Origin: Brevibacterium oceani
GTDB taxonomy: Bacteria; Actinomycetota; Actinomycetes; Actinomycetales; Brevibacteriaceae
Assembly (NCBI RefSeq): GCF_013623835.1
Contig: NZ_JABKDE010000001.1
Span: 248,001 to 312,000 of the forward strand
Length of the DNA stretch: 64,000 bases
Direction: 5' to 3'
In this document: positions 16,351 through 44,788 of the stretch, one piece after another
Numbering within the stretch: position 1 is the first letter of the stretch
Layout: every line of letters starts with the position of its first letter
Translations under genes and position numbers: made by a program
Notes under the pieces: model-generated
The model's database searches: none
What the model was told of the DNA's origin: nothing
Seen by the model: only the letters and a program-made list of their open reading frames with translations

Positions 16351-16431
16351 CGCCGGTCAGACCCGCCGGTCAGACCCGACGTGCAGACCCGACGTGCAGA
16401 CCCGCCGACGCTCAGGCGCGACGGTCAGACC
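16351..16431. repeat. 13-bp tandem repeat containing the MFS stop codon
   Basis: About six degenerate units of CGCCGGTCAGACC start at 16351, 16364, 16377, 16390, 16403 and (after a 3-base slip) 16419. The MFS stop (TCA on plus, 16425-16427) is the TCA of the last unit; units 1 and 2 keep the same TCA. The whole stretch 16148-16424 otherwise carries only the AarF 5' region. Confidence 0.8.
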
Positions 16432-17771
16432 CGGCGTCGCCGACCGGGCAGTCCGATCTGTCGTGCCCAGACGAGCACCCAGACCGCGCCGAGGAGGGCG
16501 AAGAGTCCCGGGAAGAGCACACCGAATCTCAGCGTGGTCAGGGTGATGATGAGGGAGAGCAGGCTCGGTCCGCCGAGTTTGCCGCCGTTGTTGAAGATCG
16601 CCCAGATGCCGAGGAAGCGGGGGCGACCGACTGCGGGGGACAGGTCCGCCCCGATCGTCATGTTCACTCCCGCGCCGAGGCCGTTGCCGAAGGCCATGAC
16701 GGCCGCGGCGATGACCATTCCGCACAGATCGGGAAGGACGACCATGATGATGAATCCGGTCCCGAAGATGCTCAGGCACCCCACGAGGGTGGCGATCCGT
16801 CCGAGGTGGTCCTTGATGTAGGCGCCGAGGAACATGACGATGAGTTCGAGGCCCGCCCCGAAGGCGATGATGAGCGAGATCGAGGACTCGTGCAGGCCGA
16901 TCTCCACGCCCCACAGCTGGATGACCACCGGCTGTGCGGCGCGTGCGGCCGCGAGCGTGATGATGGTGATGCCGACGAGCACGACGGACTTCCACCGCAC
17001 ATCCAAGGGCGGGCGGCGCTCCCGCTTCTTCCTGCGCTCGCCCCGGGCCGCCTCGGCGGAGGAATGCTCACCGAGGGGGCCCTCACCCGCGGAGTGCCGG
17101 CCGGGGTCGGTCGGATCGGTCGACGGCTGGCCGGGGGCCGCCTCTGTGCCCGTGCCTGTGCCGGAATCCTCCGCCGAGGCGGGACTCGGGTGATCGTCGA
17201 AGCCGGGGATCCGGGCGATCGGCAGCGCCATGATGACGATCGCGGCGACGGCGGTGATGCCGGAGAAGACGAACACCGACCAGATCGGCATGAACAGCAT
17301 GAGTCCGGCGCCGACCATCGGGCCGACGAGGTTGCCCACCCGCTGGGTGCCGCCGAGCGCGGTCATCGCCTTGGCCAGGTCGGCCGCGGGCATGACCTCG
17401 GCGACGACGGCCTGCCGGGCGAGACTCCACACGTCGGAGACCGGGGCGAAGAGCATGAGCGCGATCGTGTAGATCAGCAGCGAATACGGGGAGTCCCACA
17501 CGAAGGCCGCGACCACGGCGGTGAAGACGACGACGGCGGCGAGCGTGGCCACGAGCATCGCCCGGAAATCGCCGAGGCGGTCGATCAGTATTCCCGCCGG
17601 GACCGTGGCCGCCAGCGACACAGCCCCCATGATGCCGACGATCGCGGCGGCGAACGATGCGGTCGAACCCAAGGTGAGCGCGCCGAGGACGAGGATCGGC
17701 ATGATCGCACCCAGTCCGACGGCAAAGAGCAGAGACGGCGCGAGGACCGGCCACAGGATGGGTTTGAGCAC
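16425..17771 (-). CDS. MFS transporter
   Basis: 448 residues starting with GTG. Twelve hydrophobic segments are visible in two groups of six, with the MFS loop 2 pattern (LIDRLGDFRAM) after the second helix. The central cytoplasmic loop (about 205-265) is unusually long, acidic and low-complexity (SGTGTGTEAAPG, GEHSSAEAARGERRKK). Substrate unknown; drug or metabolite export is likely. A TAGACT hexamer six bases before the GTG suggests a leaderless transcript. Confidence 0.82.
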   Translation of the reverse strand: MLKPILWPVLAPSLLFAVGLGAIMPILVLGALTLGSTASFAAAIVGIMGAVSLAATVPAGILIDRLGDFRAMLVATLAAVVVFTAVVAAFVWDSPYSLLIYTIALMLFAPVSDVWSLARQAVVAEVMPAADLAKAMTALGGTQRVGNLVGPMVGAGLMLFMPIWSVFVFSGITAVAAIVIMALPIARIPGFDDHPSPASAEDSGTGTGTEAAPGQPSTDPTDPGRHSAGEGPLGEHSSAEAARGERRKKRERRPPLDVRWKSVVLVGITIITLAAARAAQPVVIQLWGVEIGLHESSISLIIAFGAGLELIVMFLGAYIKDHLGRIATLVGCLSIFGTGFIIMVVLPDLCGMVIAAAVMAFGNGLGAGVNMTIGADLSPAVGRPRFLGIWAIFNNGGKLGGPSLLSLIITLTTLRFGVLFPGLFALLGAVWVLVWARQIGLPGRRRRV

Positions 17772-17777
17772 CGGTTC

Positions 17778-17783
17778 AGTCTA
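17778..17783 (-). promoter_or_regulatory. Leaderless -10 box of the MFS gene
   Basis: TAGACT on the minus strand ends six bases before the GTG at 17771, so transcription would start at the first base of the start codon. Confidence 0.5.
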
Positions 17784-17821
17784 GTTCGTCACCGCGCCGA
17801 GCCTGAACGGCTCCAGCGGGG

Positions 17822-17878
17822 CTGACTCATCCCACCGGGGCTGACTTACCGCGGAGGCACTGACTCACCCCAGCGGAG
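17822..17878. repeat. 19-bp tandem repeat, each unit carrying a stop triplet
   Basis: Three exact-period units start at 17822, 17841 and 17860 (consensus CTGACTCAYCCCASCGGRG), with a partial unit before. The histidine kinase stop (TGA, 17865-17867) is in the last unit; the matching triplets in the other units read TGA and TAA on the minus strand. The period is not a multiple of three, so the repeat acts at DNA or RNA level. Confidence 0.85.
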
Positions 17879-19031
17879 CAGCCCCCGGCAACCGCACCTC
17901 GAAGCAGGCTCCCACGCGTGTGTTCGTCACGCCGACGGTGCCGGCATGGGCCTCGACGATTCCGCGCACGATCGCCAGCCCGAGCCCCGCACCGCTGGTG
18001 AGCACGTCGTGGTTCCCGGAAGTGTCGTCTGGGGTCCGCGACGGGGTTCCGCGCCACCCGGTCGTGAAGATCTCGGTGAGTGCCTCGGCGGGGATGCCCC
18101 CGCCGGTGTCGGAGACCGTGAGCACGGCGTGACCGTCGCTGTGACGGCTCGTCTCGAGGACCACCTCGGCGTGGTCGGGGGAGTGCTGCAGGGCATTCAT
18201 CAGCAGATTCTCGACGACGCGGGTCAGCTCCTTGGGATCGCCCGTGACGGTGAGGTCCGTGAGTCCGCGCGCCTCGACGGTGATCTGCTTGGACGCGGCC
18301 ACGGGACGCAGGTCGGCCACGGCATCGGAGACGAGATCGTAGAGACCGACCTCGACGGATTCGAGCTCGAGGCTGCCCGACTGGATCCGTGACAGGGCGA
18401 AGAGGTCATCGACCATGCGGGAGAGCCGGTCGACCTGAACCCGCATATTCGCGTAATAGCGCTGGGGATCGTCTGCCATGCCGTCCTCGAGGGCCTCGGC
18501 CATCGCCTTGAGGCCGGCCATCGGCGTGCGCAGATCGTGGGCGATCCACGCGATGAGCTCGCGTCGCGAACGATCGAGCGCGGCCGCCTCGTCGCGGGCA
18601 TCGGCCAACCGGTTGCTCATGGCCACGAGCTCGGCTCGCAGCCGCGCGGTCTCTGAGGCATCCTTCGCGTTGGGGGTCACGCTGAGTCGGCGGCCCTGAC
18701 CCACCTCGGTGGTCAGCGCCCGCAGGTCCCGGTGCTCCCTGGCGACGACGCGGCCGAGGACCAGAGTGACGACGGCCGTCGAGACGAGTGAGGCGGCGGC
18801 CACGGTGAGGAAGACGAAGAGGTCGTGTTCGGACAGGTACATCGCCGAGGCGATCGCGACCATTCCCGCGAGCACGGAGCACAGCGTCGTGGCCACGATG
18901 ATGGCCAGGCGCATGGTCAGGGTGCGGCGCCGAGCCAGCCACAGGGCGAGGAGCCCGAGCGCACCGACGACGCCGGAGCAGCCGAACGCGACGACGAAGA
19001 TCGTCGCCGAGTCGGGCAGAGGCAGCAGCAT
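17865..19031 (-). CDS. Sensor histidine kinase
   Basis: 388 residues. Membrane helices at about 9-33, 40-64 and 70-93 with almost no extracytoplasmic loop, then a linker and the HisKA/ATPase core: His165 in IAHDLRTP, N box ENLLMNALQHS, G1 DTGGGIP and G2 SGAGLGLAI. The lack of a sensor loop suggests membrane-intrinsic sensing. The start overlaps the stop of the response regulator upstream, so the two are translationally coupled. Confidence 0.9.
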   Translation of the reverse strand: MLLPLPDSATIFVVAFGCSGVVGALGLLALWLARRRTLTMRLAIIVATTLCSVLAGMVAIASAMYLSEHDLFVFLTVAAASLVSTAVVTLVLGRVVAREHRDLRALTTEVGQGRRLSVTPNAKDASETARLRAELVAMSNRLADARDEAAALDRSRRELIAWIAHDLRTPMAGLKAMAEALEDGMADDPQRYYANMRVQVDRLSRMVDDLFALSRIQSGSLELESVEVGLYDLVSDAVADLRPVAASKQITVEARGLTDLTVTGDPKELTRVVENLLMNALQHSPDHAEVVLETSRHSDGHAVLTVSDTGGGIPAEALTEIFTTGWRGTPSRTPDDTSGNHDVLTSGAGLGLAIVRGIVEAHAGTVGVTNTRVGACFEVRLPGAAPLG

Positions 19032-19777
19032 CAGCGCACTCCCTCGGCAGCGGATTCGGCGTCGGCCTCCTCGACGTCGAAGCGGTACCCGGCGCCCCAG
19101 ACCGTGGTGAGGAAGGTGGCGTGTGAGGGATCGCCCTCGATTTTCTCTCGCAGGCGGCGGACCGTGACGGTGATCGTCGACAGGTCACCGACCTCCCAGC
19201 CCCACACCGACCGCAGCAGCGTCTCCCGGTCGAAGACCTGATTCGGATGCTTGAGGAAGAAGGCGAGGAGGTCGAACTCCCGGGCGGAGAGCTCGAGCGG
19301 ATCGCCTCCTCGGCTGACCTTCCTCGCCGAGGCGTCGAGACGGAACGGCCCGAGCGCGAACGGTGCCTCAGGGGTGGATTCGTCCACGGTGCGCTTGAGG
19401 ATCGAACGGACCCGGAGGACGAGTTCGCGCGGGGAGAAGGGCTTCGTGAGGTAGTCATCGGCCCCGGACTCGAGCCCGTCGATGCGATCCTCCGTGGCCG
19501 AGAGCGCCGTGAGCATGAGCACCGGAACGTCGGTGAACGTGCGCAGACGGCGGCACACCTCGGTGCCGTCGATGCCCGGCAGCTTTCGGTCAAGGACGAC
19601 GAGGTCGGGCCGGACCGCGGTCACCGAATCGATGGTCTGGAAGCCGTCGGTGACCTCGTCGACGAGGAATCCCGCGCTGCGCAGGTAGTTGCGGGCCACC
19701 TCGGCGACGGTGGGATCATCCTCGACGAGGAGGATCCGCCGATCGCGCAGGGCGGAGTCGGGCGGGGGTTGCGTCAT
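19031..19777 (-). CDS. OmpR/PhoB-family response regulator
   Basis: 248 residues. The receiver domain has acidic residues in LLVEDDP, the phosphoacceptor Asp63 in VVLDRKLPG, and Lys in DYLTKPFS. A winged-helix DNA-binding domain follows (REFDLLAFFLKHP, then WGWEVGDLSTITVTVRRLREKI). It is the first gene of the two-gene operon with the kinase and diverges from the glycosyltransferase cluster at 19900. TACACT lies six bases before the ATG. Confidence 0.92.
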   Translation of the reverse strand: MTQPPPDSALRDRRILLVEDDPTVAEVARNYLRSAGFLVDEVTDGFQTIDSVTAVRPDLVVLDRKLPGIDGTEVCRRLRTFTDVPVLMLTALSATEDRIDGLESGADDYLTKPFSPRELVLRVRSILKRTVDESTPEAPFALGPFRLDASARKVSRGGDPLELSAREFDLLAFFLKHPNQVFDRETLLRSVWGWEVGDLSTITVTVRRLREKIEGDPSHATFLTTVWGAGYRFDVEEADAESAAEGVR

Positions 19778-19783
19778 GGTTCC

Positions 19784-19789
19784 AGTGTA
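19784..19789 (-). promoter_or_regulatory. Leaderless -10 box of the response regulator
   Basis: TACACT on the minus strand ends six bases before the ATG at 19777. No ribosome binding site is visible in the gap. Confidence 0.5.
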
Positions 19790-19887
19790 GGAAGCGCGGC
19801 GGTCTGCGGCCGACGAAAACCGTCCGCATGCCCGCTTTGTCCGCGTTTCGTAAGGATTCGACCGGTCTCAGGCGGCACCGTCGTCCC

Positions 19888-19893
19888 TAGTCT
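19888..19893 (+). promoter_or_regulatory. Leaderless -10 box of the glycosyltransferase cluster
   Basis: TAGTCT ends six bases before the ATG at 19900. It is back to back with the box at 19784-19789, so the two operons diverge from a region of about 120 bases. Confidence 0.5.
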
Positions 19894-19899
19894 CGGACC

Positions 19900-20673
19900 A
19901 TGCCGACATCACCTCCGCACCAGGCTCTGCCGAACAGTGCTGACCCGAACAGTGCTGACTCGCACAGCGCCGATACGAACCGCGCCGATACACACAGCGC
20001 CGATACGAACCGTGCCCGCATCGACCTGATCCTCCCGTGCCTCGACGAGGCGGCCGCCCTGCCCGGGGTGCTTGCGGGCCTGCCGGACGGGATCAGGGCC
20101 ATCGTCGTCGACAACGGCTCGACCGATGCCTCCGCCGAGGTGGCCCGCGCCCACGGTGCCCACGTGGTCGTCGAACCCCGGCGCGGTTTCGGGTCCGCCG
20201 TGCATGCCGGGGTGCGTGCCGCCACCGCCGAGGTGGTCGCGATCTGTGACGGGGACGGATCCTTCGATCTCGGCGAACTCGACCGAGTGACCGGTCCCGT
20301 CCTCACGGGCCGGGCCGACCTCGTCCTGGGTCGGAGGCGAGCCGTGAGCCCGCGCGCCTGGCCGCTGCACGCCCGGTTGGCCAACAGTGCGCTCGCCGGA
20401 CTCATCCGGCTGCGCACCGGCATCGTTCTCGGCGACCTCGGACCGATGCGGGCGATGCGCCGGCACGACCTGCTCGCGCTCGACCTCTCCGACCGGCGCA
20501 GCGGCTATCCGCTCGAAATGGTGCTCCGCGCCCGAACCGCGGGCCTGCGCATCCGCGAAGTCCCGGTCACCTACCGGCCGCGGGTGGGCCGATCGAAGGT
20601 CACCGGCACCCTGCGCGGCACCCTCACCGCGATCACCGACATGTCCCGCCTGATCAGAGAGGAGACACGATGA
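19900..20673 (+). CDS. Family 2 glycosyltransferase (dolichyl-phosphate sugar synthase type)
   Basis: 257 residues. Residues 1-42 are a tandem-repeat extension built from (N/H)-(S/R)-A-D-x units. The GT-A core starts with IDLILPCLDEA, then VVDNGSTD, a Gly-rich RRGFGSAVHAG and the metal-binding DGDGSF. The C-terminus lacks membrane helices. It likely moves a sugar from a nucleotide donor to polyprenyl phosphate or a related acceptor. It overlaps the next gene by 4 bases (ATGA) and heads a cluster that resembles the Rv0539-Rv0540 gene pair of mycobacteria (from memory). Confidence 0.82.
   Translation: MPTSPPHQALPNSADPNSADSHSADTNRADTHSADTNRARIDLILPCLDEAAALPGVLAGLPDGIRAIVVDNGSTDASAEVARAHGAHVVVEPRRGFGSAVHAGVRAATAEVVAICDGDGSFDLGELDRVTGPVLTGRADLVLGRRRAVSPRAWPLHARLANSALAGLIRLRTGIVLGDLGPMRAMRRHDLLALDLSDRRSGYPLEMVLRARTAGLRIREVPVTYRPRVGRSKVTGTLRGTLTAITDMSRLIREETR
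19932..20021 (+). repeat. Six 15-bp tandem units encoding the glycosyltransferase N-terminus
   Basis: Units start at 19932, 19947, 19962, 19977, 19992 and 20007 (for example GAACAGTGCTGACCC, GCACAGCGCCGATAC). They stay in frame and encode NSAD/HSAD/NRAD five-residue repeats. Confidence 0.85.
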
Positions 20674-21371
20674 CCACGCTCATCATGCTCGCCAAGGAAT
20701 GCGTGCCGGGAAAGGTGAAGACCCGCCTCAGTCCTCCGCTGAGCCTCACCGCCGCCGCCGAGGTGGCCGCCGCCTGCATCGACATCACCGCCGACGCCGT
20801 CGACCGATTCGGCTGGACCCGGAAGGTCCTCTGCCTCGATGGGACACGGCTGCCGAGGGACTTCACCGGGTGGGACATCGTGGCTCAGTCAGACGGTGAC
20901 CTCGACGAGCGGATCGCCGCCGTGCTCGACGCCTGTGCGGGCCCGACCGTGCTCATCGGCATGGACTCACCACAGCTCGACCGGGGCGTGCTCAATCTGT
21001 TGAGCACCGAGTGGCCGGATGACTGCGACGCCTGGTTCGGCCCGGCCGCGGACGGCGGGTTCTGGGCGCTCGGCCTGCGCGAACCCGTTGGTGACCTGGT
21101 CAGAGGGGTGCCGATGTCCCGAGCGGACACGGGCGCGATCCAACTCGAGCGGCTGCGCGCGGCCGGACTGAGGACGACGCTGCTGCCGGTGCTGCGTGAC
21201 ATCGACACGGTCGCTGACCTCGACGCCGCCGCCCAGCTGCTGCCCGGCACGCTGCTCGCTGAGTTCGCTGATCGGGCGGGCGCTGCCGTCCGCGCGGGCG
21301 TCAGCACCGGTGACGTCGTCACAGACTTCGCCGACTGCGCAAGCCTTGCCGACCGCGCGGAGGCATCATGA
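20670..21371 (+). CDS. DUF2064 / TIGR04282-type glycosyltransferase
   Basis: 233 residues with a nucleotidyl/glycosyl-transferase-like fold: KECVPGKVKTRLSPP at the N-terminus (the conserved K-x-G-x-VKTRL motif), LIGMDSPQL in the middle and FGPAADGGFWALGL, then RDIDTVADL near the end. Biochemistry of the family is not established. It is translationally coupled to the genes on both sides by ATGA overlaps, and this pairing with a family 2 glycosyltransferase recurs in actinobacteria. Confidence 0.85.
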   Translation: MTTLIMLAKECVPGKVKTRLSPPLSLTAAAEVAAACIDITADAVDRFGWTRKVLCLDGTRLPRDFTGWDIVAQSDGDLDERIAAVLDACAGPTVLIGMDSPQLDRGVLNLLSTEWPDDCDAWFGPAADGGFWALGLREPVGDLVRGVPMSRADTGAIQLERLRAAGLRTTLLPVLRDIDTVADLDAAAQLLPGTLLAEFADRAGAAVRAGVSTGDVVTDFADCASLADRAEAS

Positions 21372-22048
21372 GTGTGAGTGCGGCGCCCGTGGGTTTCGGC
21401 CACGGCGGAGCCCGCCCGTATGATCGGGCGCTGGTGATGGGTGGCGCCCTCTACCTCCACGGGATCAGCGACGATCGTGCGCCGACGCGCATGGATGTCG
21501 ACCGGTATGCCGGCGATGCCGACGCCGCCGATCTCACGGCCATCGGCCGAGCCGCGGGTGCCGTCATCGACCTCGGCTGCGGACCGGGGCGGATGGTGCG
21601 GGCAGCGATCGCCTCCGGTCACTTCGCACTCGGAATCGACGTGTCCCCGACGGCCGTGGCCATCGCTCAGGACGCCGGTCTGCCGGTGCTGTGCCGCGAC
21701 ATCGATGCCGTCCTCCCGCTCGAAGGTCGGTGGGGGACGGCACTGCTCATCGACGGCAACATCGGCATCGGCGGAGATCCGGCGCGGCTGCTCGACCGTG
21801 TGCGAGCACTCCTCGACCCTCGCGGTCGCATCATCGTTGAGACCTCCGCGGGCCAGGACGAAGTGCGATCGTTCCTCGCCGAGGTCCGTGACCGGTGCGG
21901 CCGCACGAGTGCCGCGTTCCCCTGGGCACAGATCGGCAGCACGGCCCTCGCTCGCACCGCCGCCGAGGTGGGACTGCGCGTCGAGGAGACGTGGAGTCAT
22001 CAGGCTCGCACATTCCTCGCCCTCACCGGCGTCGACGGGCGGCGATGA
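21368..22048 (+). CDS. SAM-dependent class I methyltransferase
   Basis: 226 residues. The SAM-binding motif VIDLGCGPGRM is clear, followed by an acidic end of strand 2 (ALGIDVSP) and a motif II-like ALLIDGNIGIGG. The substrate is unknown; a sugar or lipid of this cluster is likely. It overlaps the previous gene by 4 bases and overlaps the 3' end of the convergent membrane gene by 26 bases. Confidence 0.82.
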   Translation: MSVSAAPVGFGHGGARPYDRALVMGGALYLHGISDDRAPTRMDVDRYAGDADAADLTAIGRAAGAVIDLGCGPGRMVRAAIASGHFALGIDVSPTAVAIAQDAGLPVLCRDIDAVLPLEGRWGTALLIDGNIGIGGDPARLLDRVRALLDPRGRIIVETSAGQDEVRSFLAEVRDRCGRTSAAFPWAQIGSTALARTAAEVGLRVEETWSHQARTFLALTGVDGRR

Positions 22049-22586
22049 GGCCGATCGTGAGCACGATGACCGAGGCCGCTGCGACCACGCCCCAGAGCAC
22101 CAGCAGATTGCCGGCGTAATCACCGGGCAGGATGGTCGGGTTCGCGGCCCCGCGGCCCTGTGCCCAGATCTCTGGAACGACGACAGCAGAGACGAGACTC
22201 GCGGCCACCAACAGTGCCCGGGTCACTGCGAGGGCGCGGTGACCGAAGAGCGCAGTTCGGTCAGAGAGCGCGTTCCGGACAGGCGGACGACGGCGCGCGG
22301 CGAGGATGCGGTGGCCACGAGCATGTTCCGCCGACTCCGATGTCATTGCGGAGTCCGGCTCGGGGGCGGTTCGGGGTCCGAAGAGTATGCGCCCGAGCAC
22401 GGTGACGACGGGGACGAAGACGCCGTCGTGGACGATGACAGCGGCGGCCAGCCAGAGGCCGAGCCCGACGATGCTCGCTGTCCCCACGGTCGTGAGCACG
22501 AGGAACGCGCCGTAGGCGACGAATCCGATTCCGGCGATGACGAGCGCCGTGCGGGTGATGTCGCGTGAGCGCAGTGGGGGCCTCAT
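22023..22586 (-). CDS. Integral membrane protein of unknown function
   Basis: 187 residues from ATG 22586, which overlaps the stop of the oxidoreductase gene upstream (ATGA); longer upstream extensions would only read through that gene out of frame. Four hydrophobic segments lie at about 12-33, 38-62, 115-135 and 155-178 with a basic end (AARRRR). The coupling to the molybdopterin oxidoreductase suggests an accessory or electron-transfer partner; no heme-binding pattern is obvious. Confidence 0.65.
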   Translation of the reverse strand: MRPPLRSRDITRTALVIAGIGFVAYGAFLVLTTVGTASIVGLGLWLAAAVIVHDGVFVPVVTVLGRILFGPRTAPEPDSAMTSESAEHARGHRILAARRRPPVRNALSDRTALFGHRALAVTRALLVAASLVSAVVVPEIWAQGRGAANPTILPGDYAGNLLVLWGVVAAASVIVLTIGLIAARRRR

Positions 22587-23947
22587 CCGATCACCTCGAT
22601 CGTGCTGATCCATTTCGTCTGCAGCACTCCGGGGCGTCCGGGCGCGATGATGCGGGCCGGATATCCGTGATCGAGGTCGAGGGGTTCTCCGTTGAGCCCG
22701 AGGGCGATGAGGGTGAGTTCGTCGGCGGCGAACTCGGGGCCCATCTCGCTGACTGCGTAGCCCCCGCGGGTCTGCAGGCTCGTGACCCGCAATCGCGAGT
22801 GCGGGTCGATTCCCGACCGCGTCAGGACATCGCGGACGCGGACTCCCGTCCACCTCGCCGAGGTCGACCAGCCCTCGACGCACGCGATGGGAATGTCTTC
22901 GGTCGACTGGTCCATCGCCTCGAGCTCGGATCGGCTGAAGCCGTGGACGATGCCGTTGCCCCTCACCTCGAGCGTCCAGGCAGGATCGGCGGCAGTGGTG
23001 AGGACATCGGCGGCCGCGGCGGTGCGGTTGACCGGCAGTCCCTGCGGGCCGTCCCCGTAGCGGCGGGGACCGAAGAGGTTGAACGCGGAGAGAAACCTCG
23101 TCGACTGACCGGCGGTGAAGCCGACGACGGCGACGCTCGCCGCGGCCACCGAGGCGAGGAACGCCCGACGATCGGACCCTGCCGTGCGCACATGGTCGGC
23201 CGGCACACTGTCAGCCGGCACATGGTCAGTCTGCACACGGTCAATCGGTGCGGGGCCCGTGTCCACTTCGCTGACGTCCACGGCTGCGTCGCCCCGCCTC
23301 GGCGAGGGTCGGGACCTCCAATGTTGGCGGATCGTCGGCAGCTGGAAGGCGATGTGGGCGAGGAGTGAGCCGACGATGACCCAGGCGAGGGCGTAATGGA
23401 CGGTGCGGAAGGAGAACGGCCACGCATACCAGTGGTAGATGTTCATCACGCCGATCGTCAGCTCGAGCAGACTCGAGGCGACGAGGACGCCGGTGAGACC
23501 GCGTTCGAGCGCATGGATCGCCGAGGTGATCGGTGGCCACGTGAACAGGCGCGGGTAGACGGTCCACAGCTTCGCGAGGAGCAGCGGGACCGAGGCGAGT
23601 CCCGCAGCCACATGCACCCCCTGGGTGACCTGGTAGAGCACGGCCGGGCGGGTGGGGAACCGCATCCACGGCAGCGGGTCCTGCAGGTAGTGACTCCAGA
23701 TCCCGGTGGCGAAGCAGAGCACGAACGTGAGGCCGAGCAGCCTGCCGATGACGACGGCCGTGCGCGGGCCGCGCACCGAGTCGTGGGTCTGCTTCTGCGC
23801 GGAGTATGTCGTCTGCTCGTGCGTTGAGTCGGGCGTGTGTTCGTGTACGGATTGCGGCCTCGGCGCGCCCAGGCGCTCGCGCACCGAGGAACGGAGCTCG
23901 GTGAGACGGTCGTTCGGCAGATGGCCGGGGGTGTGTCGTCGCGGCAT
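22583..23947 (-). CDS. Membrane cytochrome b fused to a molybdopterin (sulfite oxidase-type) oxidoreductase domain
   Basis: 454 residues. A polar leader with short repeats (1-60) precedes four membrane helices (about 64-85, 107-127, 148-170, 183-203) with His residues placed for b-type heme (for example His112, His184, His198). A repeat-rich linker (220-256) and a hydrophobic segment after DRRAFLAS (about 262-280) lead to a YedY/sulfite-oxidase-like molybdopterin domain with Cys356 in IACVEGWS as expected molybdenum ligand. It probably reduces or oxidises an extracytoplasmic substrate using quinone electrons. It is on the minus strand within an otherwise plus-strand cluster. Confidence 0.8.
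   Translation of the reverse strand: MPRRHTPGHLPNDRLTELRSSVRERLGAPRPQSVHEHTPDSTHEQTTYSAQKQTHDSVRGPRTAVVIGRLLGLTFVLCFATGIWSHYLQDPLPWMRFPTRPAVLYQVTQGVHVAAGLASVPLLLAKLWTVYPRLFTWPPITSAIHALERGLTGVLVASSLLELTIGVMNIYHWYAWPFSFRTVHYALAWVIVGSLLAHIAFQLPTIRQHWRSRPSPRRGDAAVDVSEVDTGPAPIDRVQTDHVPADSVPADHVRTAGSDRRAFLASVAAASVAVVGFTAGQSTRFLSAFNLFGPRRYGDGPQGLPVNRTAAAADVLTTAADPAWTLEVRGNGIVHGFSRSELEAMDQSTEDIPIACVEGWSTSARWTGVRVRDVLTRSGIDPHSRLRVTSLQTRGGYAVSEMGPEFAADELTLIALGLNGEPLDLDHGYPARIIAPGRPGVLQTKWISTIEVIG
23188..23247. repeat. Four 15-bp tandem units in the oxidoreductase linker
   Basis: Units start at 23188, 23203, 23218 and 23233 (for example GCACATGGTCGGCCG and GCACACTGTCAGCCG). They stay in frame and encode the linker between cytochrome and molybdopterin domains. 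The gap between this gene's start and the next gene (23948-24207) holds low-complexity GACGACAGAGAC-type sequence and no gene. Confidence 0.8.
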
Positions 23948-24207
23948 GATTCGACCGTAGGGATCCGGCGCCGGTTATGTGCCCCGATTTCCTTACGGTC
24001 CGAAGACAGCGGGCACGGGACACCGCCTCTGTCGACTCGGCCCGGTCGAGTCGGCTCAGGCATCGACGCTCCACCTCTGTCATCGTCTCGTAAGCAAATC
24101 GCACGGTCCTCGGGCAGGTGGTCACGACACAATGGCGAGACGACAGAGACGACAGAGACAGCAGACACGACCACGGCCGAGCGGCAGGCTCGGCAGAGGG
24201 AGCACAC

Positions 24208-27976: not shown

Positions 27977-28039
27977 CTCGACTCTCTTCGTCCTAGGCTG
28001 TCCACTGTCCCGACGAACCACACCGCGAAAGCACCTGAC

Positions 28040-29236
28040 ATGACCTCGACGATCTCCGCACGCTTCCGCCTCGTCCCGATGCGCCCTCGCGATCCGGGGG
28101 AGGCGGGCCGGGCGGCGAGTACGCTCGAGCTCTTCTTCGACCTCGTCTTCGTCATCGCCGTGTCCATCGCGTCCTCGCACTTGCATGACACGGTCACTGT
28201 CGGCCGCCTCGGGGAGGGGGTGGCGAACTATCTGCTCGTGTTCTTCGGGATCTGGTGGGCGTGGATGAACTTCACCTGGTTCGCCACCTCGTTCGACACC
28301 GATGATTGGCTCTACCGGGTGCTCACGATCGTGCAGATGGGCGGGGTGCTCATCCTCGCCGCCGGCATCGGGCCGGTCTTCTCCGACGGGGACTTCCGGC
28401 TCCTCATCGGCGGCTACGTCCTCATGCGCGTCATCATGATCTCCCAATGGCTGCGCGCGGCCCGCGGTGCCGGGCCCGCGCGGTGGACGACGATCGTCTA
28501 CGCCAGTGGGATCGGGATCGCGCAGGTCCTGTGGGTGGCCTGGCTGGCCATCGACGACCCCGTCATGCGCGCGGTCGGCGTCGGGCTGCTCATCCTCGCC
28601 GAGGTGTCGGTGCCGGTCATCGCCGAGACCCGCGGCACGACTCCGTGGCATCCGCACCACATCACCGAACGCTACGGCTGCTTCACCATCATCGTGCTCG
28701 GCGAGAGCCTGCTGGCCTCGGCGGACACGATCTTCGACGCCCTCGCCGAGGTCGCCGACATCGTCCCGCTCATCTCGCTCGGCGTCCTCAGCCTCATCGT
28801 CACCGCCGCGATGTGGTGGATCTACTTCTGGCCGCCGCACCACCGGGCGATCGGCAGCCTCGGCGGATCATTGAGATACGGGTACGGCCACTACTTCATC
28901 TTCGCCGCCGCCGGCGCGTTCTCGGCCGGAGTCGGAATCGAAGCCGATTCCCAGCTCGGCGACAGCGCCCTCGATCCGGTGCTGGCGACGTTCACGGTCT
29001 CGGTGCCCATCGCCGTGTTCGTGCTCGGCGTGTGGCTGCTCGCAATCCGCGCGAACGCGAACGGCATCGTCAACACCGTCGTCCCGGTCTGCGCGGTCCT
29101 CGTCCTCCTCGACCCGATCATCCCGATCCCCACGTTCCTCACGACGTTCTTCATGATCATCATCGTCATCACCCTCATCGCCATCCCGCCGAAGGGCGGA
29201 GGCTCGGAGTACGACGCCGAGGTGGTCGCCGGGTGA
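28040..29236 (+). CDS. ltrA: Low temperature requirement protein A (LtrA) family membrane protein
   Basis: 398 residues. The N-terminal TLELFFDLVFVIAVS and the conserved His-containing segments (WWAWMNFTWFATSFDTDD, HHITERYGCFTIIVLGES) are family signatures. About ten membrane helices are visible. Function is not established; the name comes from a Listeria cold-growth mutant. A TAGGCT hexamer lies about 45 bases upstream. The final codons and stop are repeated 65 bases downstream. Confidence 0.88.
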   Translation: MTSTISARFRLVPMRPRDPGEAGRAASTLELFFDLVFVIAVSIASSHLHDTVTVGRLGEGVANYLLVFFGIWWAWMNFTWFATSFDTDDWLYRVLTIVQMGGVLILAAGIGPVFSDGDFRLLIGGYVLMRVIMISQWLRAARGAGPARWTTIVYASGIGIAQVLWVAWLAIDDPVMRAVGVGLLILAEVSVPVIAETRGTTPWHPHHITERYGCFTIIVLGESLLASADTIFDALAEVADIVPLISLGVLSLIVTAAMWWIYFWPPHHRAIGSLGGSLRYGYGHYFIFAAAGAFSAGVGIEADSQLGDSALDPVLATFTVSVPIAVFVLGVWLLAIRANANGIVNTVVPVCAVLVLLDPIIPIPTFLTTFFMIIIVITLIAIPPKGGGSEYDAEVVAG

Positions 29237-29303
29237 CGTGCAGGACCGGGCACACACCCGCCGAAGCAGGAGAAATCCTCGCCGAGGTGGCCGCCGGGTG
29301 AGC
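29216..29303 (+). repeat. Direct repeat of the ltrA 3' end including its stop codon
   Basis: GCCGAGGTGGTCGCCGGGTG (29216-29235, followed by ACG) and GCCGAGGTGGCCGCCGGGTG (29281-29300, followed by AGC) differ at one base. The TGA is the real stop in the first copy; the second copy lies between genes. Confidence 0.8.
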
Positions 29304-29395
29304 GCGGGCGCAGGCGAGTCGGCCGCTGGGTCAGCGACACAGTCACCCGCCCTCGTGACCTACCGATGCGTGAACGAACGTGGGACGCTGGAGGC

Positions 29396-30580: not shown

Positions 30581-30942
30581 GCGAGGAGCCTGCCGGCGCC
30601 GCAGGCGCCGCCGACAGCGGCGCTGAGGGGTTCGGCCGGTTGGTCGTCGAGCGCTCGGGCGGGATCGGCGGAATGCTGGTCGTCTGGGAGGTCGACATCG
30701 ACACGAGCTCCCGTCGCGACGATCTCGGCCGCAGGGTGACCGAACTGCCCTGGTCCGATCGCTCCACCGCCGATCCGGCTACGACCAGCTCAGCGTCGGC
30801 CGGTGCCGACCGCTTCGACTACCTCATCGAGAGTCGTTTCGGGCGGGTGCGTTTCGGCGAGGGACAGATGCCCCAGGAGTGGCGGCGCCTGGTCGACGAG
30901 GTCCGCGAAGTCGCCGAACCGCAGAGGCGCCGACCTGACTGA
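30577..30942 (+). CDS. Emfourin-like inhibitor of protealysin-type proteases
   Basis: 121 residues from GTG 30577 overlapping the protease stop (GTGA). The core [12 protein letters not shown] followed by a Trp-containing strand matches emfourin (M4in), the slow tight-binding inhibitor encoded beside protealysin in Serratia (established for that pair). There is an extra Gly/Ala N-terminus and no signal peptide, so it should act inside the cell and protect it from the co-expressed protease. The assignment rests on motif and operon context. Confidence 0.75.
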
Positions 30943-30958
30943 CCCTATGCTGGAGACC

Positions 30959-31918
30959 ATGACCGACGAGAAACCGACTCCGACCACTGACGCTCGGACG
31001 ACCGCAGAGCAGAACGTCCGCGACCTCGAATCCGGGATCCATACGGACCTGAAAGAGACGATGACCTACGGGTCCTATCTCGACCTCGACCGACTGCTCG
31101 GCGCCCAGCATCCCGTCAGCAGCCCCGAACACCATGACGAGATGCTCTTCATCATCCAGCACCAGACCACCGAACTGTGGTTCCGCCTCGTTATCCACGA
31201 ACTCCTCGACGCCCGCCGACTCATTGCCGCTGATGAACTGCAGACAGCGCTCAAACGCATCGCCCGCGTCAAGCACATCCAGAAGACCCTGACCGAACAG
31301 TGGTCAGTCCTCGCCACGCTCACCCCGAGCGAATACGTGGGCTTCCGCGACCAGCTCGGGCGCGCCTCGGGATTCCAGTCCTGGCAGTATCGGGCGGTGG
31401 AGTTCCTGCTCGGGAACAAGAACCGCGGCATGCTCCAGGTCTTCGACGGTGAGCCCGAGGCTCGCGCCGCACTCGAGCAGTACCTGAACGAGCCGAGCAT
31501 CTACGACGAGTTCCTCGCCTGCCTCGCTCGCCGTGGACTCCCGGTGCCCAGGCGCCTGCTCGACCGTGACAAGTCCGAGGCCCACACCTTCGACGAGGAA
31601 CTGTTGGAGACCTTCCGCATCATCTACGAGAACCCTGATGACTACTGGCTGGAGTACGAAAGCTGCGAAGAGCTCGTCGATCTCGAGGAGAACTTTCAGC
31701 TCTGGCGCTACCGGCACATGCGCACGGTGCTGCGGATCATCGGCATGAAGCGCGGCACGGGCGGTTCGAGCGGGGTCGGTTTCCTCCAGAAGGCACTCGA
31801 CCTCACGTTCTTCCCCGAACTGTTCGACATCCGCACCGGCATCGAGAACGGCCCCGGCACACGGAGGGATTCCCCTGATGCTTCGATCCAGCCGCCGCAC
31901 CCCCGCGCGGATGCGTAA
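30959..31918 (+). CDS. kynA: Tryptophan 2,3-dioxygenase
   Basis: 319 residues from ATG 30959; TATGCT ends seven bases upstream and TGGAG also precedes it. Family motifs are [30 protein letters not shown] (substrate and heme pocket), [18 protein letters not shown] and the heme-ligand region [15 protein letters not shown]. It opens the tryptophan ring to N-formylkynurenine. The convergent gene at 31971-32782 looks like the next enzyme, the formamidase, but is frameshifted. No kynureninase is in the window. Confidence 0.93.
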
Positions 31919-31929
31919 GGAGCGCCTCA

Positions 31930-31989
31930 GCTAACCGAGCAGCACGTTGGCCAACCGAGGAGCACCTCGGCTAACCGAGCAGCAGCTTG
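31930..31989. repeat. Three 20-bp tandem units spanning the formamidase-like stop codon
   Basis: Units of exactly 20 bases start at 31930, 31950 and 31970 (consensus GCTAACCGAGCAGCACSTTG). The gene's TAG stop (31971-31973 on the minus strand) lies in the last unit; the same TAG is present in the first unit and changed to TGG in the second. Confidence 0.88.
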
Positions 31990-32782
31990 CTGACCTGCGC
32001 GAAGTACGGTGACTCGGGGTCGATGACATCGGCATGGTTCGCCCCCGCCAGCTCCGTGCAGGCGGCCGGGAAGACGCGTGAGAATTCGATGTCGACGATT
32101 CCGTCGGCATCCCCGTGGATCGAATGCACGTCGACGCGTTCCGGGATGAGCGCGACGCGCGAACGCGGGTCGTGGCGCAGATACGCGGCGAGGTCCTCCT
32201 CGGGGCGCAGACCCATATAGTCGAGCACCGCACCGTCGCCGAGCCCGTCCGCCACCTCCCGCAGCAGGTCCGTCACCGGAGCCAGTGGTAGCAATCGGAT
32301 CCGCGGTCCCGCCTCGGGCAGATGCGAAGCCCACGCGAGGACGAGGCAGCCGCCGGCCGAATGACCGGAGACGATGAGGTTCTCCCGTGCCCCAGCACTG
32401 ACACCCCAACCAGGCAGTTCGGCACAGATCGAGTCGATGGCCGCGGTGACATCGTCGAGCAGGTGCGGCTGTCCCCCGGCCCGCCGGTATTCGACGAGCG
32501 CGACGAGCACCCCGGACGAGGCCAGAGCTCGAGCCAAGGGGTGAGCATGGGCGAGGTCCGTGCGAGGACGGAAGTAGCCGCCGTGGACGAAGATCACCGT
32601 CGCCGAGGCGGCCGCCGGGTCGCCGTAGACCTCGACGAACTGCTCGGGGCGTCCCCGTACACGTGCCGGAATCCCGGCACTGCGTCGGACCCGCGGCCGA
32701 TTTCGCCGAAGGCTGCGGTCGGACCACCGAGGTCCGCACCGGTCTCGGCGAGTTCGACGATGCGCGCACTCTCGTCACTCAC
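31971..32782 (-). pseudogene. Alpha/beta hydrolase, kynurenine formamidase-like, with a -1 frameshift
   Basis: The C-terminal 209 codons (to 32597) hold the full hydrolase core: oxyanion IFVHGGYF, nucleophile elbow SGHSAGG, an Asp in HGDADGIVD and His in GANHADV. The natural N-terminus (SDESARIVELAETG to FRHVYGDAP, start GTG 32782 with GGGAG upstream) is in another frame. The frames join at about 32643-32650, where adding one G/C would restore GDAP-EQFVEVYGDP. So this is a one-base deletion in a GC run: either a real pseudogene or a sequencing error. Facing kynA, it would hydrolyse N-formylkynurenine. Confidence 0.72.
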
Positions 32783-32813
32783 TTCGCTGCTCCCATTCCG
32801 CCGTCCTGACGTC

Positions 32814-32851
32814 GGCACCCTCACTCAGCCGCACCGCAGGCATCCTCACTC
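32814..32851. repeat. 25-bp spaced repeat containing the GDSL hydrolase stop codon
   Basis: GGCACCCTCACTC (32814-32826) and GGCATCCTCACTC (32839-32851) differ at one base. The stop TGA of the hydrolase is at 32846-32848; the equivalent triplet at 32821-32823 also reads TGA on the minus strand. Confidence 0.7.
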
Positions 32852-33673
32852 GACCGTGTCGTCGGTGCCGTGTGCGCGCTCGACGAGGTCGCGGACGCGG
32901 GTGAGTTCGGGCAGCTTCGGATCGAGTCTGTCCCCGGAGGACTCGCCGCGCAGGCGCCGGCCGACCCACGGGCCCAGGTACTGCTTGGCCCACCGGGACT
33001 CCTCGCTCATCACCTCTCGGATCGCCCGCGTCGGTCGCGCGGGGATGCCGAAGCCCTCGACCGGCAGCGAGTGGCCGGATTCGAGGGTGGCCAGAGCCTG
33101 TTCGGCGACGAGATGGTGGCCCTTGGGGGAGAGGTGGATGCGGTCATCGGCCCACATCTCCGCGGCATAGAGCGAACGCAGCCCCCAGACATCGATCATG
33201 TGGCAGCCGTGACGCTGCGCGATCGACCACAGGTGCGCATTGTAGACACCCACGCGCGGGCGCACCGCCCGGATCAGCGGAGTGCTGAACTCGGTGTCGA
33301 AGCCGTTGCACATGAGCACCTCGATGCCGGCCTCACGCAGCGCGACGACGGCGCGTTCGAACTTCGCGGCCAGGGCGTCGATATCCGCTTTGGGCCGCAG
33401 ACAGTCGTTGCCGCCGGCGCACAGGCTCACGAGGTCCGGCTTCAGCTCCAGGGCACGAGGCACCTGTTCGTCGATGATGCGGTCGAGGAGACGGCCGCGG
33501 ATCGCGAGGTTGGCGTACGACACGTCCGGGCTGCCCACGGAGGATTCGGTGAGCATGAGTGCCAGACGGTCGGCCCACCCGCGGAAACGGTCGTCGGCTC
33601 GGGGATCGGGATCCATCAGTCCTTCGCTGAACGAGTCTCCGACAGCCACGTATGAGGTGATGGTCTTGAGCAT
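32846..33673 (-). CDS. SGNH/GDSL-family hydrolase
   Basis: 275 residues from ATG 33673 with AAGGA upstream and a TATAGT hexamer (33707-33712) about 35 bases before the start. Block I is VAVGDSFSEG (nucleophile Ser), block III CAGGNDCL, and block V DRIHLSPKGH carries the catalytic Asp and His. No signal peptide, so an intracellular esterase or lipase acting on a small ester is likely. Confidence 0.88.
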   Translation of the reverse strand: MLKTITSYVAVGDSFSEGLMDPDPRADDRFRGWADRLALMLTESSVGSPDVSYANLAIRGRLLDRIIDEQVPRALELKPDLVSLCAGGNDCLRPKADIDALAAKFERAVVALREAGIEVLMCNGFDTEFSTPLIRAVRPRVGVYNAHLWSIAQRHGCHMIDVWGLRSLYAAEMWADDRIHLSPKGHHLVAEQALATLESGHSLPVEGFGIPARPTRAIREVMSEESRWAKQYLGPWVGRRLRGESSGDRLDPKLPELTRVRDLVERAHGTDDTVE

Positions 33674-33840
33674 CAGGGATCCTTCTCTCGTCGTTCTCCC
33701 ATCCAGACTATACGCACGCTCTGACGCGGCGTCCGTCCGGGGACGCCACGACGGTGCGGGGTGACTCGGTCGAAACGGGATGTGGCGTAGACTCGACACC
33801 GCATCCAGACGTCGCCGCCGACCCCTTCGCAAGGAGCACA

Positions 33841-35121
33841 ATGTACCGTTCGGTTCCGGTCCCCGCCCCCACAGATCTCGTCATCACGAACGCACGGATC
33901 GTACCCGTGGCCGACGAGCGCGGAAACCGTGCCGAACCCCTCGAATCGGGCACGCTGACCATCTCGAACGGCCGCATCGCCGAGGTGGCCGCCGGGTCCG
34001 TCGACACCTCCGCGCTGCCCGCCGGGATCGAGGTCATCGATGCCGGCGGACGCTGGGTCCTGCCCGGTTTCATCGAAGCTCACGGCCACCTCGGCGTGCA
34101 TGAGGACGGGGAGGGCTGGTCCGGTGACGATACGAACGAGATGACCGATCCCAACGGGGCGGGCCTGCGCGCGCTCGACGGCATCGACCCCACCGATCTC
34201 GGCTTCAAGGATGCGCTGCGCGGGGGAGTCACCTCGGCGCTCATCAAACCCGGTTCCGGCAACCCCATCGGCGGGCGCACTGCGTTCGTGAAGACCTGGG
34301 GCCGGATCGTCGACGAGATGCTCGTCACCGAGGATCTGTCGGTGAAGTCCGCCCTCGGCGAGAACCCGAAGCGCGTCTACGGGGAGAAGAAGGTCACCCC
34401 CTCGACGAGGATGGGTACCGCGAAGATCATCCGCGACGCCTTCGTCGACGCCCGGAACTACCAGGCCAAACGTGCCCACGCCGAGGCCGAGGGCACACCG
34501 TTCGACCGTGACCTGGTCAAGGAGACCCTCGCCGACGTCCTCGACGGCAAGCTCGCATGGGACCAGCACTGCCACCGCGCCGACGACATCGCCACGGCCA
34601 TCCGCCTGTCCGAGGAATTCGGCTACCGCCTGGTCATCAACCACGGCACCGAAGGCCACAAGATCGCCGACTACATCGCCGACAAGGGCATCGACGTCAT
34701 CCTCGGCCCCCTGATGACCAGCCGGTCGAAGGTCGAGCTGCGCGACCGCACGCTGGCCACCGCGGCGGCCCTGGCCAAGGCGGGCGTGCGCATCGCCCTG
34801 ACCACCGACCATCCGGTCATCCCGATCAACTTCCTCATCCACGAGGCCTCGCTGGCCGTGAAGGAAGGACTCGACCCGGTCGTGGCCATCGAAGCGCTGA
34901 CGATCAACCCCGCCGCGATCTTCGGCCTCGAGGACCGATTGGGCTCCCTGTCCGTCGGCCGCGACGCCGACGTCGTCATCTGGTCCGGTGACCCGCTCGA
35001 CCTCGACTCCCGAGCAGAGCAGGTCTTCGTCTCCGGACGCCGGGTCTTCGAATTCGACGCGCAGACGGGAACCGCGAACATCGCCGACCCACACGGCCCG
35101 ACTCTCATCAGCGAGCCGTGA
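33841..35121 (+). CDS. Amidohydrolase (imidazolonepropionase-like)
   Basis: 426 residues from ATG 33841 with AAGGAG upstream and TAGACT at 33788-33793. N-terminal strand ITNARIVPVADE, metal-site GFIEAHGHLG, then DQHCHRADD, INHGTEGHK and TTDHPVIP provide the His/Asp ligands of an amidohydrolase. The C-terminal VGRDADVVIWSGDPL is typical. Substrate unknown; related enzymes act on cyclic amides. The downstream exporter gene overlaps by 4 bases, hinting at removal of an amino-acid-like product. Confidence 0.85.
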   Translation: MYRSVPVPAPTDLVITNARIVPVADERGNRAEPLESGTLTISNGRIAEVAAGSVDTSALPAGIEVIDAGGRWVLPGFIEAHGHLGVHEDGEGWSGDDTNEMTDPNGAGLRALDGIDPTDLGFKDALRGGVTSALIKPGSGNPIGGRTAFVKTWGRIVDEMLVTEDLSVKSALGENPKRVYGEKKVTPSTRMGTAKIIRDAFVDARNYQAKRAHAEAEGTPFDRDLVKETLADVLDGKLAWDQHCHRADDIATAIRLSEEFGYRLVINHGTEGHKIADYIADKGIDVILGPLMTSRSKVELRDRTLATAAALAKAGVRIALTTDHPVIPINFLIHEASLAVKEGLDPVVAIEALTINPAAIFGLEDRLGSLSVGRDADVVIWSGDPLDLDSRAEQVFVSGRRVFEFDAQTGTANIADPHGPTLISEP

Positions 35122-36932
35122 GCGACGAAGATCTCGAAGACGCCACCACCGCCGAGGTGCGGGTCGATCCCCCGACCGCGCCCGGTCCCGTCCGCGGATC
35201 GACTCCGGCCACGGGCGCCAACGGCAATCCCGAGGCCGGATCCCAGGCCCTGCGGGAGCTGCTCGAACGCACCCGCCTGCAGCGCCTGGCCGAGCTGCGG
35301 GAGACCCCGACCGGAACCCAGCCGGACGATGTCGCCAAGGCCGCGGCCGCGAAGGCGGCGAAACCGAGCCGGAGCGGGGGACGGGCGAAGCCCCGGACCG
35401 ACCACCTCGGCGCGTCTCAGCGGATAGCGCAGAAGGTCGCCCGACGCACCGTCGGCAAACTCGTCTCGGGCACCACCACGACGAACACCCAGCCGGTGCC
35501 GATCGTCACCGCGCTCAGGGGCACCCCGTACCAGGCGCCGGTGCAGGCGACCGAGCCGAGCGAAGACGAGGCGCGGATGATCCTCGACCTCGCCGCGGAC
35601 ATCGCGGCGATGATGATGCGCGCCGGTGCCGGCACCAGCGATGTCGAGGTCTCGGTCATCGCCGCATGCACCGCGTGCGGTCTCGCCACGGTCGAGGTGG
35701 ACCTGACCTCGAACACCCTCGTCGTGCACTACTCGACCTCCGACGGTCGTCTGCTGACGGTGATGCGGGTCAACCGCGGCGAATCCACGCACTATGCGAA
35801 GCTCGCCTCGGTGCACAAGCTGGTGACCGACCTCGTCGACGGTCGACTCGAATTCAACGAGGCACGCAACCGCCTCGACGCGATCCGCTCCCAGCGCCGG
35901 CCGTTCCCGCAGTGGTTCACCACCGGCGCGTGGGGAATGATGGTCGGTGCGCTGGTTCTCCTCCTCGGGGGAGGGCCGGTCGCGGTTCCTCTGGGCATCG
36001 CCATGGCGATCCTCATCTTCCAGGTCGGCAAGTGGATCGGCCGGACGCACCTGCCGTCGTTCTTCATCACGGCGCTCCAGGCTGCCGCGGCGACGCTCAT
36101 CGCCACGATCGCCGGCGACCTCGGCCTCATCGCCTCACCGCAGTACCTCGTGGCCGCCGGCATCGTTCTGCTGCTGCCGACCCAGTCGCTCTATTCGGCC
36201 GTGCAGGACGCGTTGACGAACTTCCCGCTCACCGCGGCCGGGCGCGTGGTCGGGGTGTTCATGACCCTGGCGGGCATCGTCTCCGGCATCGCCTTGGGCG
36301 TCGTGTGCGGGCAGGCGATCGGGCTGAGCCATATCGAGGTGCTCGTGCCGAAGACGAGTCCGCATGTGGTCACTGCCATCCTGTCGATGTTCGCGGCCGT
36401 CGTGGTCTCGATGTCCGGTGCCGTGGCGATGTCGGCCAGGCGGCGGTTCATCCTGCCTGCGGCTCTGGTCGGGCTCGCTTCGCACATCACCATGATGTCG
36501 CTGACCCTGCTGCACATCGACAATGTGCTCGCCAGCCTGCTCGCGGCCACCGTCACCGGGTTCCTTTCGAGGCCGTTGGCGCTGCGGCTGGGAGCACCGG
36601 CGATCGTGCTCATGATCCCCGGCATCTACACCCTGCTGCAGGGACTGTCGATCTTCACCGCCGTCTACCAGATCGCCTCGGACTCGGAGAACGTCTCGTT
36701 CGCCGTCGGCCTGTCCTCGCTGTTCACCGCGATCCTGGCGAATGCCGCCCTGGCGGTCGGCGCGGTGTTCGGCAGCTATCTGGCACTGCCGCTGAAGAAC
36801 CTCAAGAGCCGCAGCTCGGCCGAGGAGAAGGTCGAGTCGGTGCGCAGCGGAGAGCCGGTGACCGCGGTCGTCGACACCGTCCAGACCGGCGGGACGAAGA
36901 CGCAGACGGGGTCGGCGCCGACCGAGCCGTGA
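35118..36932 (+). CDS. thrE: Threonine/serine exporter (ThrE family)
   Basis: 604 residues from GTG 35118. A polar N-terminus (1-140) leads to the soluble ThrE domain (ILDLAADIAAMMMRAGAGTSDVE, a family signature) and then about ten membrane helices in two groups (about 270-400 and 420-570), as in the Corynebacterium exporter. It would export threonine, serine or similar products by proton motive force. Translational coupling to the amidohydrolase suggests a shared substrate. Confidence 0.88.
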   Translation: MSDEDLEDATTAEVRVDPPTAPGPVRGSTPATGANGNPEAGSQALRELLERTRLQRLAELRETPTGTQPDDVAKAAAAKAAKPSRSGGRAKPRTDHLGASQRIAQKVARRTVGKLVSGTTTTNTQPVPIVTALRGTPYQAPVQATEPSEDEARMILDLAADIAAMMMRAGAGTSDVEVSVIAACTACGLATVEVDLTSNTLVVHYSTSDGRLLTVMRVNRGESTHYAKLASVHKLVTDLVDGRLEFNEARNRLDAIRSQRRPFPQWFTTGAWGMMVGALVLLLGGGPVAVPLGIAMAILIFQVGKWIGRTHLPSFFITALQAAAATLIATIAGDLGLIASPQYLVAAGIVLLLPTQSLYSAVQDALTNFPLTAAGRVVGVFMTLAGIVSGIALGVVCGQAIGLSHIEVLVPKTSPHVVTAILSMFAAVVVSMSGAVAMSARRRFILPAALVGLASHITMMSLTLLHIDNVLASLLAATVTGFLSRPLALRLGAPAIVLMIPGIYTLLQGLSIFTAVYQIASDSENVSFAVGLSSLFTAILANAALAVGAVFGSYLALPLKNLKSRSSAEEKVESVRSGEPVTAVVDTVQTGGTKTQTGSAPTEP

Positions 36933-36949
36933 GGGTTCAGTCGGAGCGG

Positions 36950-37013
36950 TCAGGCTCTGAGGCGGCAGCGCCCAGTCGTGAGGACTCAGCCCTGAGGCGG
37001 CAGCGCCCAGTCG
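36950..37013. repeat. 36-bp spaced repeat of the uracil-DNA glycosylase 3' end
   Basis: The copies at 36950-36978 and 36986-37013 share a perfect 22-bp core (CTGAGGCGGCAGCGCCCAGT and two more bases). The second copy is the coding end of the gene with stop TGA at 36986-36988; the first lies beyond the stop and keeps the TGA triplet (36950-36952). Confidence 0.88.
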
Positions 37014-44774: not shown

Positions 44775-44775
44775 T

Positions 44776-44781: not shown

Positions 44782-44788
44782 CGACGGG

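Follow-up and report, generated by a model that had tools for sequence, protein, structure and literature searches.

Slipped misalignment between direct repeats is an established mutational mechanism, and mycobacterial interspersed repetitive units (MIRUs), which overlap both stop and start codons, constitute one family of related units. They are counted among the bacterial minisatellites or variable-number tandem repeat (VNTR) loci (PMC3635867). The TAACTGA repeats of Beggiatoaceae have a fixed 7-bp unit lying mostly just before start codons, and a post-transcriptional role is proposed for them (PMC4679880). In yeasts, tandem stops at the third codon downstream are reported to be conserved more than sense codons (PMC1088959). 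Here we consider tandem repeats at gene ends of Brevibacterium oceani (GCF_013623835.1, G000; 4.48 Mb in 20 contigs), first noticed in a 64,000-nucleotide stretch (C11:248001-312000, hereafter the window), where the last codons and the stop of six unrelated genes were said to recur in the 3′ flank, a seventh gene having its repeat directly after the stop. With a probability of roughly 85%, they are short tandem duplications born by slippage and kept by tolerance in weakly constrained 3′ flanks, and are not selected for extra stops. The phenomenon looks ordinary; among the titles and abstracts listed by a literature search, none dealt with stop-spanning tandem duplications that have gene-specific units.

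Like MIRU and other VNTR loci, the Brevibacterium arrays consist of short head-to-tail units, many of them intergenic and some overlapping stops. They do not form a single family: in agreement with the original prediction that units differ between genes, of the 89 arrays in 1.13 Mb that are mainly noncoding or span a stop, 82 match no other at E<=1e-3, and the seven that resemble another are far from the one related unit, scattered over the genome, that defines a MIRU or a repetitive extragenic palindromic (REP)-like element. The TAACTGA repeats are likewise direct repeats found mostly in intergenic DNA (PMC4679880), whereas the Brevibacterium units are mostly unrelated to each other, are depleted before starts and give no sign of function. 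Yeast tandem stops share with them the presence of extra stop codons shortly past the real one (PMC1088959), but most of the Brevibacterium extras lie outside the reading frame, and their conservation does not measurably exceed that of their neighbours. The closest likeness is to slipped misalignment, where a duplication arises between short direct repeats and bases are shared at its ends; we see no difference from that process, which in Brevibacterium is suggested by sequence comparison.

Genes were called on 708 kb of C11 and 420 kb of C13, a quarter of the genome, with our own uncurated script, which misses very long atypical open reading frames (ORFs) such as the one at window 46-5484. That 1812-aa open frame is perhaps acquired DNA with a different codon usage. 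Comparison genomes were the sisters G003 (88% nucleotide identity, the closest region compared) and G038 (83%), the high-GC outgroup G109 (80 kb only) and Escherichia coli K-12 (200 kb, genes called by the same script and the fetched annotation not used). A further set of 19 related named loci comes from one region and is phylogenetically redundant, so that its members are not independent. Repeats were scored by a lag score in 110-bp windows, 13 or more counting as a repeat (three cut-offs were tried), at gene ends with at least 80 nt of noncoding DNA (at least 200 nt for the far flank). Wider counts used Tandem Repeats Finder (TRF) arrays with a score of at least 50 and a period of at most 100.

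Repeats are concentrated at gene 3′ ends. They lie near 58/476 stops and 13/547 starts in the genome of the window (p=4e-10), near 22/158 stops and 6/200 starts in G003, near 9/170 stops and 3/218 starts in G038, and at none of 62 stops and 94 starts in the 200 kb of E. coli. Shuffled sequences reach the same cut-off in 0-0.14% of cases and inner coding sequence in 11/705; on C11, 56 mainly noncoding TRF arrays compare with 0-4 in each of 10 shuffles. Chance is thus excluded for the array set as a whole. The association does not extend to the stop codon itself. The far 3′ flank (+80 to +190) holds repeats in 17/191 cases in the genome of the window, 8/68 in G003 and 0/75 in G038, and stops do not differ from it in the window genome at any of the three cut-offs (p=0.28, 0.88 and 0.46). 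The expected enrichment of stops over starts and shuffles is therefore present in the 1.13 Mb counted, without an enrichment over the flank further downstream, and the proposed tie to gene 3′ ends holds for the flank, with no support for the codon itself. Arrays that span a stop are found at 16 of the 1001 called genes (11/633 on C11, 5/368 on C13).

The positions of array edges lead to the same result. Among 831 stops followed by at least 75 nt of noncoding DNA in the genome of the window, G003 and G038, 22 edges fall at -25 to -5 and 42 at +5 to +45, a density ratio of 1.05 (p=0.89). Edge density is 12-14 per 10 kb at +5 to +45 and drops to 6-9 at +45 to +150. When the named loci are included, the interval -25 to +5 holds 55 edges on 1221 eligible stops and two on 1360 eligible starts. 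For these 1221 stops, with arrays that run beyond the stop followed back to -100, every edge inside a gene is within 40 bp of its end. With the far flank equally rich and no clear excess of edges at the stop, a tie of the repeats to the stop codon is not supported.

This pattern fits the following scheme. If the copying of DNA slips from one direct repeat to a neighbouring one, each only a few bases long, a short tandem duplication would result, and such duplications would accumulate in the weakly constrained DNA downstream of genes. Where one crosses the stop, its first copy keeps the original stop and the reading frame would be untouched at any period, so that the event is likely to be tolerated. 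Since the first copy stays in place with its stop, the harmless zone extends one period into the gene, and edges just inside the gene should be as dense as in the free flank, as the ratio of 1.05 bears out. Stop codons inside repeats therefore need no special mechanism, because a duplication across the stop leaves the protein unchanged.

The seven gene ends were chosen by eye among 54 called in the window, and for this reason the wider test carries the weight. With 200 dinucleotide shuffles of each 140-bp site as the control, five of them clearly exceed chance. The end of the AarF/UbiB-like gene (14096..14147, reverse strand; stop TAG 14135-14137) has a 16-bp repeat with a lag score of 21.0 (shuffle maximum 15.5); the repeat lies just after the stop, as first described, and also partly across it, and TAG becomes CAG in the next two copies. 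The MFS gene (16350..16433, reverse strand; stop TGA 16425-16427) ends in about six copies of a 13-bp unit (35.0 vs 14.0), which read in order CTGA, CTGA, CTGCA, CTGCA, CTGA and CTGA, the TGA being lost as TGC in two. At the ltrA-like gene (29215..29301, forward strand; stop TGA 29234-29236) the final 22 bp recur 65 bp downstream (19.5 vs 11.0). The alpha/beta hydrolase gene first called formamidase-like (ORF 31971-32597; repeat 31921..31984, reverse strand) has a 20-bp repeat (22.0 vs 13.0) with the stop TAG in copies 1 and 3 and TGG in copy 2. At ung (36954..37013, reverse strand; stop TGA 36986-36988) 25 bp of the gene end are repeated (22.5 vs 11.5) at 35 bp for the coding part and 36 bp for the stop. 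The weak 19-bp repeat of the histidine kinase gene (17813..17869, reverse strand; stop TGA 17865-17867) scores barely above its shuffles (13.0 vs 12.5), and the 25-bp repeat of the GDSL hydrolase gene (32814..32851, reverse strand; stop TGA 32846-32848) is marginal, its 10.5 lying under the shuffle maximum of 12.5 (p=0.03). TRF at a score of at least 30 finds only the AarF, MFS and hydrolase sites. The periods had been taken as exact, which fails at ung and at the MFS and histidine kinase genes, whose copies drift in spacing; nor is the stop triplet always held across copies, as the AarF, MFS and hydrolase arrays illustrate.

The same gene ends in other species carry a stop-spanning array (TRF score of at least 40) in 8/91 distinct ortholog flanks (at least 75% protein identity), with a period different from that of the window in six of the eight. 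For the histidine kinase no ortholog flank was found at this identity. The 20-bp period at the hydrolase end also occurs in S22 and permense Ln26, where it may be shared or independent. In-frame TGA codons that appeared in relatives of the hydrolase are an artefact, the frame used (31927-32778) not being the hydrolase frame; the loci retrieved with it served solely as a source of flanking sequence. The AarF-like protein is 95-96% identical to its counterparts in B. epidermidis, B. linens, B. permense, B. sediminis and B. iodinum; it has some match in 57/57 genus-group genomes searched, many only to a paralogue at about 35%. A plasmid search with the first 8 kb of the window gave no match.

A local duplication process was the third option offered by the original prediction, and it is the one that the data support. 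Exact duplications (period 12-150, five Brevibacterium sets) have a period divisible by three in 39/39 cases inside coding sequence, in 5/26 noncoding cases and in 1/5 across stops, and noncoding TRF arrays are spread over period remainders 0, 1 and 2 as 49, 52 and 43. The process thus seems active inside genes too, where only frame-keeping events survive, and the period pattern seems to reflect one mutational process plus purifying selection on the frame. The ends of the duplications share bases, with a median of 6 compared with 0 for planted blunt duplications (p=3e-15; 29 exact noncoding or stop cases, after two of 31 with many copies were dropped). Three of the 29 share 0 bp. The 13 strict two-copy duplications also have a median of 6, two of them sharing 0.

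Three events have a single-copy state in another species. At C11:59622 a 33-bp unit that begins 5 bp past a stop is present twice in the genome of the window and once in G003; the single-copy sequence of G003 contains CCGCCTCGGC twice, a 10-bp direct repeat spaced at exactly 33 bp, as slippage would require. The exact 20-bp tandem duplication at 56333..56372, between divergent genes with no stop nearby, lacks its second copy in G003. Conversely, the gene end at 45466..45602 (forward strand; stop of ORF 44765-45538) is single-copy in the window and G003 has a 13-bp duplication spanning the stop. The arrays therefore show head-to-tail likeness beyond chance, direct repeats at their ends and gain or loss between relatives, as expected of slippage duplications, and slippage is the likely mutational step.

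The likely cause of the bias toward 3′ ends is relaxed constraint, rather than duplications forming more often there. For orthologs of at least 85% protein identity (others were dropped) and flanks with at least 60 nt of noncoding DNA, median identity to G003 is 0.69 in the 60 bp after the stop (n=114), 0.87 before the start (n=141), 0.92 at the ends of coding sequences (n=222) and 0.52 for random pairs; the corresponding values for G038 are 0.60, 0.73, 0.87 and 0.50. Because sequence is conserved less well after stops than before starts, the 3′ bias is explained without extra supply. Repeats cover 8.7% of noncoding base pairs in convergent spacers, 3.1% in co-directional and 2.6% in divergent spacers of the window genome, and 7.2%, 4.2% and 2.3% in G003, an order that agrees with repeats being most abundant where constraint is weakest. 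G038 does not follow this order (0.8%, in 1/59 convergent spacers; 1.2%; 1.4%).

Positions turn over between species. Among 152 orthologous stops of the window genome and G003 (noncoding DNA of 40 bp or more, proteins at least 70% identical), six have an array in both, 20 only in the former, 16 only in the latter and 110 in neither (p=0.22). Of the 42 stops that have an array in either genome, 36 thus lack it in the other, although the two genomes are 88% identical. Of the six held in common, four share the unit and are likely inherited, and the other two do not.

Several observations weigh against this reading of slippage followed by tolerance. The four arrays common to the two genomes mean that not all are young. 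In the narrow edge bin -15 to -5 the ratio is about 1.6 (p=0.02 with a fixed expectation and the named loci included, p=0.10 without them), and there may be a mild excess at the stop itself. The roughly threefold repeat fraction of convergent over divergent spacers (8.7% vs 2.6%) is predicted by tolerance, but a higher supply would produce it too. The shared bases might be inflated in old arrays with eroded extra copies, and the duplication at window 56333, single in G003, shares 0 bp at its ends. Only three of the 10 exact duplications with any sister hit are decisive, six aligning only in part, and at C11:109898, where a duplication crosses a stop, the G038 sequence matches the duplicated form a little better than the single one. 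Finally, the roughly threefold lower load of G038 is not explained by tolerance alone.

That last point bears on another reading, in which a single Brevibacterium lineage has an elevated, lineage-specific process of tandem duplication that rewrites its gene 3′ ends, with convergent spacers affected most. Noncoding arrays number 5.83 per 10 kb on C11, 7.26 on C13, 7.53 in G003 and 7.46 in the pooled named loci, compared with 2.16 in G038, far below the window genome's 5.83-7.26 (p=2e-4). The outgroup G109 has four arrays in 8.4 kb (4.75 per 10 kb) and 2/79 stops spanned, a sample too small to judge whether Brevibacterium is unusual. We regard this reading as unlikely, though more probable than those that follow; if true, the rate would be set by a change in replication or repair, or by collisions between transcription and replication at convergent genes. 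Within the genome itself, contig C2:1-80000 (L119-L122), of lower GC (0.62), has 0 arrays; its noncoding DNA amounts to 15.3 kb, for which the C11/C13 rate predicts 9.6 (p=7e-5).

A supply hot spot, with more duplications formed at gene 3′ ends, for instance through encounters of the transcription and replication machineries in convergent spacers, is improbable. It would account for the richness of convergent spacers in the genome of the window and G003 and for the fall of edge density beyond +45. Yet divergent spacers at 100-200 bp from the nearest start reach 4.8% in the window genome (4.0% in all sets, 1.3% in G003), near the stop-side values of co-directional spacers, the lower conservation of 3′ than 5′ flanks already accounts for the bias, and G038 has no convergent excess.

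Control of RNA 3′ ends, with the repeats acting as terminators, Rho-loading sites or stabilizing structures, was also suggested at first and fits the location of the repeats, past stops and densest between convergent genes in the genome of the window. The sequences themselves disfavour it and make it quite unlikely. The 58 repeat flanks from the genome of the window, G003 and G038 show less structure than a sample of 174 among the 746 without repeats (z -0.11 vs -0.68, p=0.004, mononucleotide shuffles), T-tracts occur in 3/58 vs 87/746 (p=0.19), and GC is 0.70 vs 0.65, with the C-G skew toward G (p=0.03), opposite to what Rho loading needs. The repeat flanks thus show neither the stable hairpin with T-tract nor the C-rich unstructured site of known terminators, and the idea of C-rich repeats as Rho sites was rejected for their G-richness. 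Low structure, no enrichment in T-tracts and G-richness together argue against either role, and array positions are mostly not common to the sisters.

Back-up stop codons, by which duplicated gene ends would be retained to catch readthrough or frameshifted ribosomes, are slightly less plausible still. Selection on tandem stops is reported in yeasts (PMC1088959). The 42 distinct stop-spanning arrays contain 71 downstream copies that include the stop triplet, which is kept in 45 and lost in 26; this retention is slightly above that of control triplets (544/989), though not significantly so (p=0.19), and in no case has a lost stop become another stop codon. Duplicated stop codons are therefore not measurably better preserved than other bases, as selected back-up stops would be relative to sense triplets. 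An extra stop in the gene's own frame is equally lacking, with a period divisible by three in 9/42 arrays where 14 are expected (p=0.14). The next in-frame stop lies within 20 codons in 40% of genes with arrays vs 33% of all genes, and the medians are close (30 vs 36 codons), a slight lean toward back-up stops; repeats, however, are equally common 80-190 bp downstream.

Fill-in of staggered breaks followed by end joining (Ku/LigD) has very little probability. The genome of the window has one match to the Ku domain, but G003 has none and a similar array density (7.53 per 10 kb), which makes this route unlikely, and blunt joining predicts 0 shared bases against the observed median of 6. In G038 the Ku domain lies in two pieces of short open frames (G038:C1:1425795-1426076), and the gene may be broken. 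NucS was found, and no match to MutS, in all four genomes searched; we make no causal claim for either. An assembly artefact, which could be entertained since the verdict rests on the assembled sequence of the strain, is extremely unlikely, as array copies differ by substitutions and stop-spanning arrays also occur at the same gene ends in assemblies of related species (8/91 flanks, 6/8 with another period).

Other repeats were found besides these arrays. A 62-bp imperfect palindrome, GTTCAAG...CTTGAAC, recurs as 17 elements (E<=1e-3, seven strict seed copies among them) across 2.34 Mb of Brevibacterium DNA, and resembles a family of interspersed palindromic repeats belonging to the genus. It lies outside the window, at C11:42495, 42586 and 329311 (L055, L069), at C13:217239 and 245270 (L172, L174) and in the G003 and G038 stretches; two copies are 91 bp apart, none is inside a called gene, and G109, E. 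coli and C2 gave no copy. The 3′ flanks of C11 gene 85 and G003 gene 276 share a 91-bp tandem array that has arms GATCAAG...CTTGATC and is similar in look to this palindrome (84.5% identity over 71 bp). In the window, overlapping tandem repeats at 46345-46472 (periods 15-33, all divisible by three) occupy the 3′ part of ORF 45640-46485 and perhaps encode a repetitive C-terminal tail.

The stop-spanning duplications of Brevibacterium offer a clean null model for repeats at gene ends, and a caution that such repeats can look functional though they are likely scars. The difference in load between the sister lineages is a useful lead, and it opens the control of short tandem duplication in MutS-less bacteria to comparison.

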